Shown: piece by piece, positions 2,634 through 27,628 of the stretch
Layout: every line of letters starts with the position of its first letter
How positions within the stretch are numbered: position 1 is the first letter of the stretch
Virus record (IMG/VR): IMGVR_UViG_3300020166_000087
Coordinates: 1-28,605 of that record
DNA length: 28,605 bases
DNA from: a virus
Direction: 5' to 3' (one strand)
The notes under the pieces: generated by a model
Databases searched by the model: none
Seen by the model: only the letters and a program-made list of their open reading frames with translations
What the model was told of the DNA's origin: nothing
Made by a program: the position numbers and the translations under genes

Positions 2634-2970
2634 AGGCTCGTCGTAGTTTTTTGACCATGCGCTTGTTCTTGCCCGCACAACTGCACGGCCTCTCGTTGGC
2701 GCTGAAGGTCTGATTGAAAATATCGTACATGGTGCGCGTCTCGGCGCGGTTCAATACGCCCTTGTCTATCGCTGGCAACAGCTCCGCGAAGGCGCTCACG
2801 TCCTCGGCGGACATCTCCACGTTGCGACCGGGGAACTGGGCGTTGAGTTTCGCGCGGCGTTCCTCACACCCGCAGTCCTCAACTACGGCGTGGACGAGCT
2901 TATCGATTCCCGTCGCCTTCGTCAGCTTCGCGATCTGGTCGCCGAGCCCCTTGGATTTCTTTTCTGACAC
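2611..2970 (-). CDS. Conserved Bacteroidota-phage protein with CGC and CSC motifs
   Basis: 119 aa from GTG 2970. The start is chosen because the N-terminus VSEKKSKGLGDQIAKLTKATG matches a short phage family I recall (KSKGLGDTIEK...), whereas the longer frame from 3093 reads through the sigma-like gene. Cysteines are clustered at 33 and 35 (DCGCEERR) and at 96, 98 and 117 (PCSCAG, YSCKP), suggesting metal binding. The C-terminus is very basic (KNKRMVKKLRR), so nucleic-acid contact is possible. It overlaps the upstream gene by 71 bases, more than is usual in this genome. Function unknown. Confidence 0.7.
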   Translation of the reverse strand: MSEKKSKGLGDQIAKLTKATGIDKLVHAVVEDCGCEERRAKLNAQFPGRNVEMSAEDVSAFAELLPAIDKGVLNRAETRTMYDIFNQTFSANERPCSCAGKNKRMVKKLRRAYEYSCKP

Positions 2971-3436
2971 GTCGTATCGTAGTGTATAGTTTGTGGCGGC
3001 TGATGCCCGTCGCCTCGGCGAATGAATCGAGCGTGTGGCCCTCTTCGAAGTATATGGCAAACACCTCAGCGTCAAACCACGGCAAATCGGCAAGGCGCTC
3101 CTCGATATGCGTCAGGAGCTCGTCGCGGTGTGCCGCTACGCCGTCCCCGTCCCACCAGTCGACAATGTGCCGGGCGAACTTGCGGCGGCGCTCGATGTCC
3201 TTCCTCCACTTGTAGTGATACCGGGACGTCTTCGAGTTGTAGTTGTTGACCATCACCCGCAGGACCCAATACTTCATCTGGTCCCTTTCGAGTAGGCCGT
3301 CGATGGTGTCCTGTTTGGTTTGGTACAGCTGGAGGATGACCTCATGGAGTAGGTCCGGCCCGTCCTTCCCTGCAATCCGATACGCGGCCTGAAGCAGGTC
3401 GTCGTAATTGCGGGAGAGGTAGCCGTCCAAAGTCAC
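2900..3436 (-). CDS. Sigma-70-like (ECF-type) RNA polymerase sigma factor
   Basis: 178 aa, GTG start at 3436 overlapping the NinG stop (GTGA). Residues 10-80 resemble sigma region 2: an acidic helix (DGPDLLHEVILQLYQ) followed by YWVLRVMVNNYNSKTSRYHYKW. Residues 117-162 resemble region 4, with a helix-turn-helix in HTLDSFAEATGISRHKLYT. The protein is short and lacks other sigma regions, as in ECF-type factors and phage relatives. It lies at the end of the replication block and ahead of the packaging genes in transcription order, a sensible place for a factor switching host polymerase to late genes. Its target promoters are not identified; the paired promoters found here all have the host consensus. 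Confidence 0.72.
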   Translation of the reverse strand: MTLDGYLSRNYDDLLQAAYRIAGKDGPDLLHEVILQLYQTKQDTIDGLLERDQMKYWVLRVMVNNYNSKTSRYHYKWRKDIERRRKFARHIVDWWDGDGVAAHRDELLTHIEERLADLPWFDAEVFAIYFEEGHTLDSFAEATGISRHKLYTTIRRVRKEIQGARRPDREADEGDGNR

Positions 3437-5812: not shown

Positions 5813-6026
5813 AGTTCGGGGGGTTTTTAAGGTCAATGTTTAACCACTCGCACACCTGCCCCAACTCGTTCAGAAAGAACTGTCCGGGATCCTTGAGCTT
5901 CCGGTTCATCGTTGCCGGGTGGATTCCTAGCTCTTGCGCAAGCTGCTTCTGGGTCTTCTTCTGCATCGCCATCTCTGCAACGATTGCACGGTTCACCGAC
6001 GTGAACCAACGTTTATATTTCGTCAT
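5793..6026 (-). CDS. Cro/CI-like helix-turn-helix regulator
   Basis: 77 aa, ATG at 6026. The HTH is at about residues 25-45 (TQKQLAQELGIHPATMNRKL), followed by a short helical part and an unstructured tail. It is a single-domain Cro-like protein without a peptidase or dimerisation domain. It is the first gene downstream of a strong host-type promoter, and that promoter overlaps an inverted repeat suited to an operator. It probably controls the divergent promoters, autoregulating its own operon and the rightward operon. No integrase is present, so a lytic/lysogenic switch is not supported. Confidence 0.8.
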   Translation of the reverse strand: MTKYKRWFTSVNRAIVAEMAMQKKTQKQLAQELGIHPATMNRKLKDPGQFFLNELGQVCEWLNIDLKNPPNYGSSAN

Positions 6027-6046
6027 CTTTTAGTGTTTTGACAGAG

Positions 6047-6079
6047 CAAATATAAACCGAAGATTTGGTTTATTGCAAA
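6047..6079 (-). promoter_or_regulatory. Leftward early promoter (Bacteroidota type)
   Basis: On the minus strand, TTTG at 6079..6076, a 21-base spacer, and TATATTTG at 6054..6047. This fits the Bacteroidota housekeeping promoter (-33 TTTG, -7 TAnnTTTG). Transcription would begin near 6041, giving a leader of about 15 bases before the repressor gene and reading into the replication operon. Confidence 0.82.
6052..6073. promoter_or_regulatory. Inverted repeat between divergent promoters, candidate operator
   Basis: ATAAACC (6052..6058) and GGTTTAT (6067..6073) form a perfect 7-base inverted repeat around an 8-base spacer. It covers part of the leftward -7 box and the rightward -33 box, so one bound dimer could block both promoters. 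The adjacent HTH protein is the natural candidate ligand. A second imperfect repeat (CAAAT at 6076..6080, ATTTG at 6092..6096) spans the two rightward promoter elements. Confidence 0.55.
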
Positions 6080-6096
6080 TGATGCGCATATATTTG
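6064..6096 (+). promoter_or_regulatory. Rightward promoter (Bacteroidota type), probably leaderless transcript
   Basis: TTTG at 6064..6067, a 21-base spacer, and TATATTTG at 6089..6096. The ATG of the first rightward gene is at 6101, only five bases after the -7 box. The transcript should therefore start at or within a few bases of the start codon, with no room for a ribosome binding site. Confidence 0.82.
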
Positions 6097-6100
6097 TGGC

Positions 6101-6277
6101 ATGGAATACACAAGCACACAACTATTCGACGAGGTCATCCAGCTGGCCACCCCCGACTGTATCAAGCGCCGGGATATGACCGTCATCCGTAAGATTAAAG
6201 ACCTGCAGAACTACACGCAGCGCCTTGAGCAAATCGCAGAGGATGCCATCGCCACCCTTAAAGAGAAGAACGCATGA
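6101..6277 (+). CDS. Small protein (58 aa), first gene of the rightward operon
   Basis: Not recognised. It begins MEYTSTQLFDEV and is predicted helical with alternating charges (RKIKDLQNYTQRLEQIAEDA), consistent with a short coiled coil. The ATG follows the promoter -7 box by five bases, and the TGA overlaps the next gene's ATG (ATGA at 6274..6277). It is the first product expressed from the rightward promoter, so an early role such as host takeover or anti-defence is possible; nothing in the sequence shows which. Confidence 0.7.
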   Translation: MEYTSTQLFDEVIQLATPDCIKRRDMTVIRKIKDLQNYTQRLEQIAEDAIATLKEKNA

Positions 6278-6498
6278 ACACCGATCACAAGCTGGGACGC
6301 GCTGAGGCCGTCCGCGATATGTCCCGCGTCATCTACGACGAGGTGGGCAAGCTAGACAACCACATCACCGCACGCACGGCACAGCTAACCGAAGACCGCG
6401 AACATAGCGGATACCTCTCCGACGACCCCAAGCTGTCAGAGCTTCGCGCCATGCGTACCGCGCTCGACTTCATCCACGCCCGAATAAACCGGATATGA
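6274..6498 (+). CDS. Small helical protein (74 aa) of the rightward operon
   Basis: Not recognised. Hydrophilic and helical throughout, for example SRVIYDEVGKLDNHITART and LSELRAMRTALDFIHARINR. No cysteines or membrane segments. It is coupled by four-base overlaps to both neighbours. The heptad-like spacing of hydrophobic residues suggests a helical bundle or dimer. Function unknown. Confidence 0.7.
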   Translation: MNTDHKLGRAEAVRDMSRVIYDEVGKLDNHITARTAQLTEDREHSGYLSDDPKLSELRAMRTALDFIHARINRI

Positions 6499-6764
6499 TT
6501 GACTGGTATAACTTCCATTGCAGGACGTGGAGGGAGGCCAAGCGCAATTGGGGTCATATGATGCAGGATAAGGGTTTGCAGCAAATTAACCGCGATGCGC
6601 CCACCGGATACGGAGAAGCTCCCCACCTCATCACGAGCAAGGTCGAGGGCTTCGGCTTCGTCATCTACCCCAAAGGATACGACCCAAGAGAAATAAACCA
6701 CACCCTAAGCTCCAGAGCGTCCATCTATGGCAACCGGTACTGCGGGTCTTTAAACTCCTTCTAA
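6495..6764 (+). CDS. Small protein (89 aa) of the rightward operon
   Basis: Not recognised. It starts MIDWYNFHCRTWREAKRNWG and is rich in aromatic residues (Trp, Tyr, Phe) and Gly. The second half looks like a small alpha/beta fold (APHLITSKVEGFGFVIYPKG). Its stop overlaps the next start as TAATG. Co-transcribed with three other small proteins in the only rightward operon. Confidence 0.7.
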   Translation: MIDWYNFHCRTWREAKRNWGHMMQDKGLQQINRDAPTGYGEAPHLITSKVEGFGFVIYPKGYDPREINHTLSSRASIYGNRYCGSLNSF

Positions 6765-6964
6765 TGGAATTCTTCGACATGATTATCAGCCAGTACGGGA
6801 GCGTCCACAAGTGCGCCGCAAAACTGGGAACCAATAGGGAGCAACTGCTCCGACAAATCCGCACCGGGAACGACCAAGTGCTTAACGCCATAGCCGACAA
6901 CTGCCGCCTCTCCCGTCAGGAGGTGCGGTGGGAATTCCGCTACCATACCGAGCGGATGCCTTGA
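6764..6964 (+). CDS. Small HTH-like protein (66 aa), last gene of the rightward operon
   Basis: A helix-turn-helix-like segment spans about residues 12-55 (SVHKCAAKLGTNREQLLRQI, then LNAIADNCRLSRQEV). The protein is basic overall. It could be a second DNA-binding regulator opposing the leftward Cro-like protein, a layout common in phage control regions. No operator can be assigned to it. The gene is followed by a short trailer and an intrinsic terminator. Confidence 0.7.
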   Translation: MEFFDMIISQYGSVHKCAAKLGTNREQLLRQIRTGNDQVLNAIADNCRLSRQEVRWEFRYHTERMP

Positions 6965-24448: not shown

Positions 24449-24453
24449 GCTCT

Positions 24454-24482
24454 AAAATAGAAAGCCCCGCACGAAGCGGGGC
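24454..24482 (-). terminator. Intrinsic terminator after the 85-aa moron-like gene
   Basis: Stem GCCCCGC (24482..24476) and GCGGGGC (24470..24464) on the minus strand, 7 perfect pairs with a 5-base loop, followed by TTTCTATTTT (24463..24454). It ends the short unit that starts at the promoter near 24800. Late transcription from further upstream must read through or be antiterminated to reach the next tail gene. Confidence 0.85.
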
Positions 24483-24505
24483 AGTCTGTTTGTATGTGGC
24501 AAACA

Positions 24506-24763
24506 TTAGGCCTGCCGTTGGCGGCGAATGGTTGAGACGTTGTAAACGACTCCACTCCTGCGGTACTGACGTAGGAAGCGGTATCCGTAGAAGTCAACAG
24601 GCTCGCCCTGCTCAAGCTCGTCGTTCAAGGTGTTGAACTCAGAGAGGCTCATCTCGATGCAGGATACATCATCAAGCAGGAGGCTGAGGTCCAGAGAGGA
24701 CTTGGAACCGTTTTCCTCGATGCGAATCTCGCCGGTGTAAAGTGTGTCGCTGCTGATGGTCAT
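24506..24763 (-). CDS. Moron-like small protein (85 aa) with own promoter and terminator
   Basis: Not recognised. It starts MTISSDTLYTGEIRIEENG and continues with SLDLSLLLDDVSCIEMSLSE, then a basic end (RFLRQYRRSG, STIRRQRQA). A small mixed alpha/beta fold is likely; no membrane segment. It is the only gene between a host-type promoter (24792..24822) and an intrinsic terminator (24454..24482), inside the late tail region. That layout is characteristic of morons, which are often expressed independently of the lytic programme or at high level. It could alternatively be an abundant virion protein that needs its own promoter. Confidence 0.72.
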   Translation of the reverse strand: MTISSDTLYTGEIRIEENGSKSSLDLSLLLDDVSCIEMSLSEFNTLNDELEQGEPVDFYGYRFLRQYRRSGVVYNVSTIRRQRQA

Positions 24764-24791
24764 GTCGTTTTGTTTGCCTTGTTTGATGTCT

Positions 24792-24822
24792 CAAAGATAG
24801 GCAGAAACATTCAACCACCAAA
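24792..24822 (-). promoter_or_regulatory. Promoter of the 85-aa gene (Bacteroidota type)
   Basis: On the minus strand, TTTG at 24822..24819, a 19-base spacer, and TATCTTTG at 24799..24792, matching TTTG...TAnnTTTG. The predicted transcript starts near 24786, some 20-25 bases before the ATG at 24763, with an A-rich leader typical of Bacteroidota. Confidence 0.8.
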
Positions 24823-24846
24823 CAAATACACAAATAAATTTCTCCC

Positions 24847-25490: not shown

Positions 25491-26205
25491 GTGTTCAATT
25501 TTTGTTTCTCCAGAAGCGCCCGGTCTTGTTCGTAGGCGAGCCAGGCGAGCGCCGTTTCGAGGTGAGTCCTTTCCACCTGCGATAGTTTAGTAATGTCCTC
25601 CCCTGCGAGATGTACGAACGTGGCGAACCATCCGTATTTTTCGGATAGCTTGGATCCTTCACCGCCTTGGAATAGCTGTCCAAAGCGTCGACTAATCCCT
25701 TCCCGATACGCAAAAAAAAAGCGGCGGCACCGAGTGCGTGCGCCATCTTCATCTCCCGGAAGAACTCCGAGCGGTCCTCTCCGTCGTAGTCTGCGATGCG
25801 GTAAAATTCGCCGTGCTCCTCTACGATAGGGCGGTAGAGGATGCCCATCACTTGGGGAAGGTGTTTGTCGAGGGAGTCCTTGCACAGCGTCTCGATGTCT
25901 GCGAACTCGGCGACTGTGATCCGTGAGAGGTTCGGATGGAATCCGTAGCGTTGGTCCAGCTCGATGATACGCTCGACGGGGTACGTGTCGTCGTACTTGT
26001 CCAAGATGCCACCGATGACGCCCCCGATGTATTGGATATCCTTCTGCTCCATCGCCATGACCTCAGCGCGGTCCATGTGACACAGTATGCAGATTGTACG
26101 CACTACCTGATCCAGCTCGTCCCCTTCGGGTATCGCTTGGATTTGGAGGTACTGGTCGACGGTGATGTCGTAGAGGTTCTCCGGTATCGTTACGGTCTTG
26201 TTCAC
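25487..26205 (-). CDS. Tail assembly chaperone, -1 frameshift product (lambda gpGT-like)
   Basis: A -1 shift in the T9 run (25720..25712) joins the N-terminal part to a second frame that reads naturally to the stop at 25487. That part includes FAYREGISRRFGQLFQGGEG, KYGWFATFVHLAGED, ERTHLETALAWLAYEQDRAL. The stop at 25487 shares ATGA with the next gene, as most genes here do, whereas the 0-frame stop at 25495 does not. The fused protein would be 239 aa. KYGW...LAG and LAYEQD-type endings are familiar from Bacteroidota phage proteins of this neighbourhood. A one-base homopolymer deletion would give the same picture. Confidence 0.6.
25495..26205 (-). CDS. Tail assembly chaperone, 0-frame product
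   Basis: 236 aa from GTG 26205 (VNKTVTIPENLYDITVDQYL). The frame extends upstream to a TTG at 26328, but that would run through an intrinsic terminator, so it is rejected. The first 165 residues look like a genuine helical protein (LDQVVRTICILCHMDRAEVM, IQYIGGVIGGILDKYDD, FFREMKMAHALGAAAFF). After the T9 run the reading frame turns basic and low in structure (RRWKGLTSKRRSPGSPTNK), as if out of frame. By position, size and paired frames it resembles the lambda G/GT tail chaperones. The product that ends in this frame may be a minor species or an artefact of a homopolymer length error. Confidence 0.6.
   Translation of the reverse strand: MNKTVTIPENLYDITVDQYLQIQAIPEGDELDQVVRTICILCHMDRAEVMAMEQKDIQYIGGVIGGILDKYDDTYPVERIIELDQRYGFHPNLSRITVAEFADIETLCKDSLDKHLPQVMGILYRPIVEEHGEFYRIADYDGEDRSEFFREMKMAHALGAAAFFLRIGKGLVDALDSYSKAVKDPSYPKNTDGSPRSYISQGRTLLNYRRWKGLTSKRRSPGSPTNKTGRFWRNKN
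25712..25720 (-). promoter_or_regulatory. T9 slippery site for -1 frameshifting
   Basis: Nine T on the minus strand. In the zero frame the codons read GCT TTT TTT TTG, giving the slippery heptamer T TTT TTT (X XXY YYZ). A -1 slip leads to TTT GCG TAT in the frame that continues to 25487. No strong downstream stem-loop was established by eye. Confidence 0.55.
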
Positions 26206-26234
26206 GCTATCAAATAGACGAAAGGTAGGGACAT

Positions 26235-26260
26235 AAAAAAAGGAGGGGTTCAGCCCCTCC
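26235..26260 (-). terminator. Intrinsic terminator upstream of the tail chaperone
   Basis: Stem GGAGGGG (26260..26254) and CCCCTCC (26248..26242) on the minus strand, seven perfect pairs with a five-base loop, directly followed by seven T (26241..26235). It ends the short transcript that starts near 26431 and lies 30 bases before the chaperone GTG. Confidence 0.9.
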
Positions 26261-26291
26261 CGCAGCACGTGAGCTCCCGTGCAACTTGCGG
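26260..26291 (-). other. Structured RNA hairpin next to the terminator
   Basis: Read on the minus strand, CCGCA pairs with TGCGG and GCACG pairs with CGTGC, making a 10-pair stem around an 8-base loop with a 4-base bulge (AGTT). It touches the terminator stem at 26260. A noncoding 3' region of this size with two strong hairpins in a compact phage suggests a stable or functional RNA. Confidence 0.5.
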
Positions 26292-26324
26292 CATTTAACG
26301 TAGGCCGCCTCCACTTGTTATCGT

Positions 26325-26402
26325 TCAATCCATGTAATCCAATTCAACCAGTTCAAGGATTGCTTCAAAGGCTTCGTGGATGGAGGGGTTGTTTTCGTTC
26401 AT
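26325..26402 (-). CDS. Moron-like micropeptide (25 aa) with own promoter and terminator
   Basis: ATG at 26402; the peptide begins MNENNPSIHEAFEAILELVE and ends LDYMD. Acidic and predicted to form one amphipathic helix. A longer frame from 26543 runs across the promoter and is rejected. It is the only ORF on a predicted transcript of about 195 bases running from the promoter at 26437..26467 to the terminator at 26235..26260. The AT-rich leader suits Bacteroidota translation. The transcript may also act as RNA, with the ORF incidental. Confidence 0.5.
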   Translation of the reverse strand: MNENNPSIHEAFEAILELVELDYMD

Positions 26403-26436
26403 GTCGTTGTGTGTTTGTTTGTCGTTGTTGACATAG

Positions 26437-26467
26437 CAAATATACGACAATGTTTTGCTTCTCCAAA
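26437..26467 (-). promoter_or_regulatory. Promoter of the 25-aa unit (Bacteroidota type)
   Basis: On the minus strand, TTTG at 26467..26464, a 19-base spacer, and TATATTTG at 26444..26437. This is a perfect match to -33 TTTG and -7 TAnnTTTG. It lies just after the large terminase gene in an AT-rich gap. Transcription should start near 26431. Confidence 0.85.
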
Positions 26468-26491
26468 CATTCACGCAAAAATAATTTGCTT

Positions 26492-27628
26492 TTATGCGAG
26501 GAAGTAGGAACCCGACCGGGAGGTAGTCAGCAGATTGAGACACACGTACCGCACCGCATCAATCCCGTGGTTGTCCTTGTCCACTGGTCGGTTGAGGTTG
26601 CGCCCGTTCTTGTCCTGCTCCCATCGGTACGCCCGGAGTTCTTTCTGTAGGTGCGTGCTCTCAGCGGTCACCAGGAGCTTGTGTCGTCTCATGATGTCGA
26701 TACCCTGACGGATCGAGTCCGGTCCCTTCCGTGCGGGCTTGACGTTGTGCCCCAATCTGAAAAGCTCCTCAATACTCTTCGGCTCGGCTGAGTCTGCGAT
26801 GATGGTCTCGACGTCCAGCTTGTCGAGCTCTTCGCCTATGTCCGGGTTTGTGAGTCCTGTCGAGTACAGGCGCTCGTGAAGTATCAAGGTATGCCCGTCA
26901 AGGTAGACATCGATGACGGCTGTCGGGTCGTTGGTGAATCCAAAGTCGAGGCCCGTGCCTATCCTCTTGCCGGCTATCTCTCCCACCTCCCACGTAAATA
27001 CAGCGGCTTGATTGACGCCCCTTTCTCCGAGTCCGTAGATGCGCCAATAGTTCGGGTCTGCATCCTTAAGGCGTTCTATCTCTTGGATGGTGGCCTTGTC
27101 GAGGTAGGGGTTGTCCTTGTACGTAGTGCGGAAGAAACTCGCATCGGTTCGGGGTATTACCTCCTCGTAAATCCAATGATATTCGTCCGAGGGGTTGAAG
27201 TCAATCACCACCTTGCGCGTGGTACGGAGTAGGAGCTGCCTCCAGTCCTCCAGGCTCAGCTCGTTGGCCTCGTTGATGAATAGGACCTGTCGCTTTCTTC
27301 CCCTGACCTTCTGCGGCTGGTCTACGCTGATGAACTCCACGAGGTTCCCAAAGAGGACATAGTTCGCCTCTGACTTGTTGTGGAGGTCGGGGTTGTAGAT
27401 GTCCTCCCGTTCTAAGATTTCGAAGAAGTCCCTCATGGCCGTAGCCCGTAGCGCGGGGAATGTCTTCCGGGCGATGGTGATGACCGCCCCGGCGTTCTCG
27501 TTCTCGTAACAGAGCTCGACGATACTCTGGAGGATAGAGTACGTCTTCCCGCTCCTTGTGCCCCCTTGGTGGACTTGGATCCGGGAGGCGCAGCCTTTGA
27601 CGTGGTAGTAGGTGGCGGGCTGCTTCAC
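26492..27628 (-). CDS. terL: Terminase large subunit (TerL)
   Basis: 378 aa, GTG start sharing GTGA with the upstream stop. ATPase motifs: Walker A GGTRSGKT (22-29) and Walker B VLFINEAN with E120 (115-122). FNPSDE (144-149) is a conserved phage terminase motif. The nuclease half has acidic residues D228 (GLDFGFTNDPTA), D279 (TIIADSAEP) and D357 (HGIDAVRY). It cuts concatemers and pumps DNA through the portal into the head. Compact length and motif spacing suit the PBSX/Terminase_3 group, many of which package headful-style; the packaging mode cannot be settled from this sequence. Confidence 0.95.
   Translation of the reverse strand: MKQPATYYHVKGCASRIQVHQGGTRSGKTYSILQSIVELCYENENAGAVITIARKTFPALRATAMRDFFEILEREDIYNPDLHNKSEANYVLFGNLVEFISVDQPQKVRGRKRQVLFINEANELSLEDWRQLLLRTTRKVVIDFNPSDEYHWIYEEVIPRTDASFFRTTYKDNPYLDKATIQEIERLKDADPNYWRIYGLGERGVNQAAVFTWEVGEIAGKRIGTGLDFGFTNDPTAVIDVYLDGHTLILHERLYSTGLTNPDIGEELDKLDVETIIADSAEPKSIEELFRLGHNVKPARKGPDSIRQGIDIMRRHKLLVTAESTHLQKELRAYRWEQDKNGRNLNRPVDKDNHGIDAVRYVCLNLLTTSRSGSYFLA

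Follow-up and report, generated by a model that had tools for sequence, protein, structure and literature searches.

A self-contained expression cassette at the terminase junction of a phage genome lies in a high-turnover cargo slot

What is a short unit with its own promoter and terminator doing between the terminase large subunit gene (TerL) and the next gene of a phage virion operon, and how did it come to be there? The question is raised by a stretch of viral DNA of 28,605 nucleotides (IMG/VR record IMGVR_UViG_3300020166_000087, positions 1 to 28,605), referred to here as the window. A preliminary description made from the letters alone had proposed that the unit is a moron with a role outside virion assembly, encoding a 25-residue peptide and perhaps a regulatory RNA, and had placed it between TerL and a tail chaperone gene in the largest gap of the genome. 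The tail chaperone is not confirmed: the sole match of the next gene is phrog_32199, a family with no assigned function. The gap claim stands in part: the interval 26206-26491 is the largest within the run of virion genes, but on the minus strand as a whole it is exceeded by a 924-bp gap at 5837-6760, in a ranking made from a rough hand gene list. This larger gap holds overlapping plus-strand ORFs at 6274-6498, 6495-6764 and 6764-6964, with a one-mismatch promoter upstream of them at 6037-6067, and is possibly a divergent operon. Elsewhere in the window the minus strand encodes a C-5 cytosine DNA methyltransferase (1207-2397; PF00145, 4.6e-46), and the 28.6-kb record, which may be a fragment, contains no match to the integrase family PF00589.

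In minus-strand order from TerL to the next gene, the unit consists of a promoter, a leader, a 25-aa ORF, a 3′ segment and a terminator (Table 1). Its promoter matches the sigma-A consensus of Bacteroidota perfectly, and the host-type promoter of the preliminary description is thereby confirmed. There are two such perfect matches in the window, where 0.03 would be expected, and none of 100 shuffled sequences contains two; both precede small cargo ORFs, the second being that of a similar unit further downstream (Table 1). For Flavobacterium johnsoniae, PMC6847099 gives TTTG/TAHHTTTG as the primary consensus, its last G lying at -5, and an average leader length of 33 nt. Applying this rule places the predicted +1 at about 26432, against 26431 as first claimed, and gives a predicted transcript of about 198 nt in close agreement with the self-contained transcript of about 195 bases that had been proposed. 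There are A residues at -6, -12 and -13, which are among the favourable positions given in PMC6847099, and -3 is a G rather than an A. The fold predicted for leader A has an energy of only -3.1 kcal/mol, start codon included, and exact searches of genome contigs for an origin of the leader sequence in host genomes gave no match.

Upstream of the promoter, the AT-rich segment that follows the TerL stop codon is present in relatives and is possibly an UP-like element. Two further candidate features in this region were rejected. An inverted repeat that resembles an operator and precedes the promoter looks compensatory in a few phages, but a stem of at least five pairs forms in only 13 of 26 distinct versions and it is not a general feature; a potential leader uORF with its ATG at 26434 begins upstream of the predicted transcription start and is absent from two relatives (L002 and L006).

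Table 1. Positions of the unit, its flanking genes and the second cassette in the window
Feature	Position	Strand	Description
TerL, terminase large subunit	26492..27628	-	378 aa; phrog_2, 1.5e-38
AT-rich upstream segment	26468..26491	-	TerL stop codon to -33 box
Promoter	26437..26467	-	TTTG-N19-TATATTTG; -33 box 26467-26464, -7 box 26444-26437
Leader A	26403..26432	-	GTCAACAACGACAAACAAACACACAACGAC; A/C-rich, nearly unstructured, ~30 nt
25-codon ORF (cargo)	26325..26402	-	MNENNPSIHEAFEAILELVELDYMD; ATG at 26402; acidic, net charge -7
3′ untranslated segment	26262..26324	-	predicted 5-pair hairpin and 7-pair bulged hairpin
Intrinsic terminator T2	26235..26261	-	GGGAGGGG-loop-CCCCTCC, seven T; -15.3 kcal/mol
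Insert tail	26206..26234	-	conserved TTTCGTCTATTTGATAGC before downstream GTG
Downstream gene	25495..26205	-	236 aa; phrog_32199; GTG start at 26205, set from relatives
Slot 2 cassette	24449..24846	-	promoter 24822-24792, A/C-rich leader, 85-aa ORF 24763-24506, terminator 24482-24464

Whether the unit is an addition to the operon can be judged from phages with related terminases. A scan of IMG/VR with the TerL of the window returned 452 relatives, of which the best 80 (L001-L080, with 89-100% protein identity) were kept, giving 81 phages with the window; repeating the scan from a distant member recovered nearly the same loci. The counts that follow for the TerL junction, which we call slot 1, refer to these 81 phages, and loci L081-L111, mostly re-fetched contigs, were left out, L084, L086, L092 and L111 among them. 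The 81 are not independent of one another, being represented by 72 different TerL rows.

Slot 1 is empty in 21 of the 81 phages, and at these sites the start of the downstream gene overlaps the TerL stop by four bases. The other 60 are filled, 51 of them with complete inserts and nine on contigs that end before a recognisable downstream gene. A full -33/-7 promoter is present at 42 of the filled sites and the TAHHTTTG box at 52, leaving 18 without the full pair and eight without a -7 box as defined. The leader is of the window's type (leader A) in 37 cases, of a second type (leader B) in 13 and of other types in ten. In the 36 leader-A loci that are readable the cargo ATG lies at an offset of 92 in 35 and 88 in one, and the ATG of the 25-codon ORF sits at this fixed position. 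All 51 complete inserts carry a terminator, either T1 (GGCCCTNCGGGGCC, seven T; 49 inserts) or T2 (two inserts, in the window and L006), and all 51 are lower in G+C than their TerL (0.44 versus 0.57 in the window); morons characteristically deviate in base composition from the genes that flank them. On the TerL tree, well-supported branches carry at least 12 switches between the empty and filled states. The related TerL genes of bacterial genomes (26 loci, 50-57% identity) are found in a different context, and none of the 22 examined has the promoter. The precise overlap at the empty sites, the promoter at filled sites, the terminator in every complete insert and the AT-richer inserts lend strong support to the moron reading of the preliminary description.

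The contents of the slot change much faster than its surroundings. Between the window and L003 the sequence from the TerL stop through the leader is identical at 90 of 90 positions, TerL is 92.1% and the next gene 93.0% identical, and the cargos are unrelated; L011 gives the same 90/90 match with a TerL at 89.7% and again an unrelated cargo. The reverse is seen between L003 and L064, in which cargo plus terminator match at 236 of 238 positions (99%) across TerL genes that are only 82.3% identical. Even the nearest relative of the window, L005 (95% in TerL), carries a different cargo. When the first ORFs are given family labels, assigned by hand, the 25 labels on 55 labelled rows of the TerL tree require 32 changes. 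A hand-picked set of 61 representative ORFs (42 from slot 1, 18 from slot 2 and one from slot 3, a doubtful 34-aa ORF in slot 2 of L011 having been dropped) falls into 41 families, 27 of which occur in slot 1 among its 42 representatives. Tandem double cassettes are present in L002, L004 and L012. Because the same promoter and leader stand before unrelated cargos, and the same cargo recurs across diverged terminases, the unit is best described as a moron in a high-turnover slot. The cargo genes are short, lack family matches and are easily overlooked by gene callers; searches of Pfam, PHROGs and PADLOC (10 proteins each) produced no convincing match for any of the cargos tested.

Slot 1 is one of at least three such sites. 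At slot 2, to which the second perfect promoter of the window belongs, 21 distinct versions are empty and 22 filled, these being counts of distinct sequences from the 61 loci that have both flanks. In L034 slot 2 contains a 58-bp insert that amounts to a bare terminator between the flanking genes, which suggests the ghost of a cassette lost by deletion. A third slot is seen in L020 at 2764-3004, between the small and large terminase genes, where the cargo of a leader-A-type unit is homologous to the slot 1 cargos of L004 and L023; this cargo extends into the start of TerL, with no terminator in between. Cargo homologues are thus found across slots, with a best E value of 6e-20 and one weak match at 0.008; examples are the cargos of L016 slot 1 and L080 slot 2 (2e-19) and of L004 slot 1 and L020 slot 3 (8e-8). 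Read at the level of sequence, the comparisons document insertion, an empty site, a shared promoter, leader and terminator, replacement of cargo, and movement of cargo between genomes and between slots.

Leader B (GTCTTCGGAC...CCCGAAG), present at L013 4014-4080, L021 1224-1291, L056 3710-3776 and other loci, is common to three unrelated cargo families. It looks structured, three of ten sequences having both partners of one pair changed, and is possibly an RNA control element; a search of Rfam gave no match to it.

What, then, does the cassette of the window carry? The single 25-codon ORF reported earlier is present as described, and its sole relative found is a 24-aa peptide, MNNDTNTNEAFEAILDLLEVYGLD, encoded in L006 by a second ORF that lies behind a 94-aa first ORF and is probably translationally coupled. 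In phages, tblastn gave no hit for the 25-aa peptide or for one 66-aa cargo, and the other matches to EAFEAIL in viral contigs (8 of 9) are attributable to chance. The two related ORFs are identical at 57 of 75 aligned bases, with 18 differences and one whole-codon gap. Reading the alignment by eye, nearly all 18 differences change an amino acid, so that the peptide shows no sign of being under purifying selection, the 3′ part of the unit being better kept. Short peptides are nonetheless familiar in this slot: membrane-type peptides of 21-25 aa that start with MKD are encoded by the last ORF before T1, which directly adjoins or overlaps the stop codon of the main cargo, in L037, L045, L055, L066, L074 and others, and a peptide of this second-ORF type is the sole cargo in L066, L070 and L074, making a lone short peptide a recurrent cassette type in slot 1. 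We think it likely that the 25-aa peptide is made. Type I toxin-antitoxin systems combine a small hydrophobic peptide with an antisense RNA. The peptide of the window is acidic, with a net charge of -7, and within the unit there is no plus-strand Bacteroidota-type promoter (N19 spacing, at most one mismatch).

The alternative that survives best is that the cassette has decayed, a deletion having removed its actual cargo so that promoter, leader, a remnant of a second ORF and terminator persist with no present function. The position of the related peptide behind a longer first ORF in L006 fits such a history, the bare terminator in slot 2 of L034 shows that cassettes do decay, and the predominance of replacement changes in the peptide points the same way. 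Against these observations, leader and ATG are spaced exactly as in intact cassettes, cassettes with full-length cargos have an identical promoter and leader, the ORF has remained open with a length change relative to L006 of one whole codon, and second-ORF peptides stand alone in three other phages. We therefore consider decay unlikely, if by no means far-fetched, and prefer an intact cassette with a very small cargo.

A second alternative is that the transcript of about 198 nt acts as a small regulatory RNA and that the 25-aa ORF is incidental. The strong intrinsic terminator proposed for the unit is borne out, with 4 of 200 shuffled sequences folding as well (z -2.42 for the terminator alone), but the 10-pair bulged hairpin proposed upstream of it is not: prediction yields the two smaller hairpins of Table 1, and their stability is that of shuffled sequence (z -0.03, with 98 of 200 shuffles equally stable). 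The z of -2.26 for the whole transcript is partly due to the terminator. This fold is found in one related phage only, L006, where it is identical, and the unit has no match in Rfam; beyond the terminator, then, the structured or regulatory RNA of the preliminary description is not supported. That description had also tied its reading to the retention of promoter and hairpin in close relatives, of which the promoter proves to be widespread and the hairpin is confined to the one phage. The main point in favour of an RNA is that the window and L006 agree at all 119 bases 3′ of the ORF, whereas the ORF matches at 57 of 75, TerL at 1033 of 1131 (91%) and the next gene at 476 of 510 (93%), and small RNAs are carried at phage moron sites (PMC4104026). 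Either recent exchange or constraint on this 3′ region would account for the identity. The other leader-A cassettes with enough sequence have a clear ORF that starts at the same position, and the unit shows neither the conserved nor the unusually stable structure that would mark a regulatory small RNA. An RNA function is in our estimation improbable, and the peptide-coding cassette is again preferred.

It might also be supposed that the insert serves the virion operon itself, as a gap with a regulatory function, in which transcription between TerL and the downstream genes is reset or tuned regardless of cargo. The presence of a terminator in all 51 complete inserts would fit such a role, as would the conserved tail (Table 1) that precedes the next GTG in these inserts, compared by eye. 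This tail is probably the region where translation of the next gene starts. Two other accounts of it were considered and discarded: it resembles the junction at empty slot 1 sites and might have been a duplicated end of TerL, but there is no duplication in slot 2; and as a second promoter it departs from the -7 consensus. A role in the virion operon is hard to reconcile with the 21 of 81 phages that lack any insert and keep the four-base overlap, and it leaves the many unrelated cargos unexplained; we regard it as very improbable. Finally, a chance arrangement of promoter-like, ORF and terminator features in an intergenic region has nothing but the small size of the ORF in its favour and is already refuted by the comparison, given the excess of perfect promoters and the same architecture in 60 of 81 phages, and we give it practically no credence.

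We conclude that the unit is almost certainly an inserted cassette in a cargo slot, and that it is very probably a moron in the full sense, a self-contained expression cassette placed exactly where TerL meets the next gene, with a cargo that is open to exchange. A host among the Bacteroidota is inferred from the promoter type and from distantly related TerL genes found in Bacteroidales genomes. The promoter would then be read by host RNA polymerase carrying the primary sigma factor of these bacteria, in which case no phage factor would be needed for transcription. The short, unstructured A/C-rich leader may support translation without a Shine-Dalgarno site, the cargo would be translated from it, and the terminator would isolate the cassette from the virion operon. 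Exchange could proceed by homologous recombination in the shared promoter and leader on one side and the terminator region on the other, a mechanism that the observed pattern fits. The role outside virion assembly proposed at the outset agrees with the presence and absence of the insert and with the fast turnover of its cargo. Small phage genes that are dispensable, turn over fast and are independently expressed often face the host or a competitor, and from this pattern a cargo role directed at the host or its defences, rather than at the virion, might be drawn. As none of the cargos tested has a convincing match, the function is a guess, and that the 25-aa peptide acts on the host or its defences is put forward tentatively. 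Still more speculative is a plug-and-socket system spanning the whole phage population, in which the virion operon has three or more fixed sockets and unrelated micro-proteins by the dozen, some as small as 21-25 aa, are exchanged among genomes and sockets as a common arsenal against host defences or rival phages, with near-identical promoter/leader and terminator pieces serving both as expression parts and as homology arms; we think this possible and rather doubtful.

The slot shows where a whole group of phages keeps its fast-changing accessory genes, and promoter plus leader A provide a simple sequence handle with which such genes can be harvested. If the cargos prove to be counter-defence or host-takeover factors, the slot would be a ready-made catalogue of them. 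The slot is not described in the general moron and PeSL literature that we searched, although other publications may exist.

Several known systems invite comparison. Morons were originally defined as complete transcription units that have been added to phage genomes (Juhala et al. 2000, via PMC6316719), and the P22-like ant moron occupies a variable site in the late genes with ten types in sixteen genomes (PMC2629481). The cassettes described here resemble these in being extra units between genes that are adjacent in relatives, with a promoter and terminator of their own (here recognised by sequence), a deviant G+C content, small ORFs without assigned function and a variable site inside the late genes. 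They differ in that promoter and leader are common, up to base-for-base identity, to cassettes with unrelated cargos, and in that the cargo families used by at least three slots overlap. Some lambdoid phages carry anti-sRNAs of 51-60 nt at moron sites (PMC4104026), which share with the unit a short independent transcript (predicted in our case) at such a site; the transcript predicted here measures about 198 nt, its cargo position is occupied by an ORF, and it contains no supported fold except the terminator.

There is also a parallel with the T4-type PeSLs, composite promoter-terminator motifs that are dense in the variable regions of T4 and are credited with shuffling genes between phages (Arbiol et al. 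2010; Comeau et al. 2014, via PMC4503421 and PMC3950731). In both systems the same regulatory sequence is found beside unrelated small ORFs in different genomes. In the present phages, however, promoter and leader precede the cargo and the terminator follows it, the two lying side by side only in the tandem cassettes of L002, L004 and L012, and the cassettes are restricted to a few fixed junctions of the virion operon and use a Bacteroidota promoter. Moron sites within late genes and promoter stem-loop shuffling in T4 are thus known; what differs here is a single promoter-leader of Bacteroidota type, base-identical in places, that stands before many unrelated cargos at fixed junctions. The slot forms a Bacteroidota parallel to the T4 PeSLs and the P22 ant moron site, one in which the existence of both empty and filled sites makes gain and loss directly countable.
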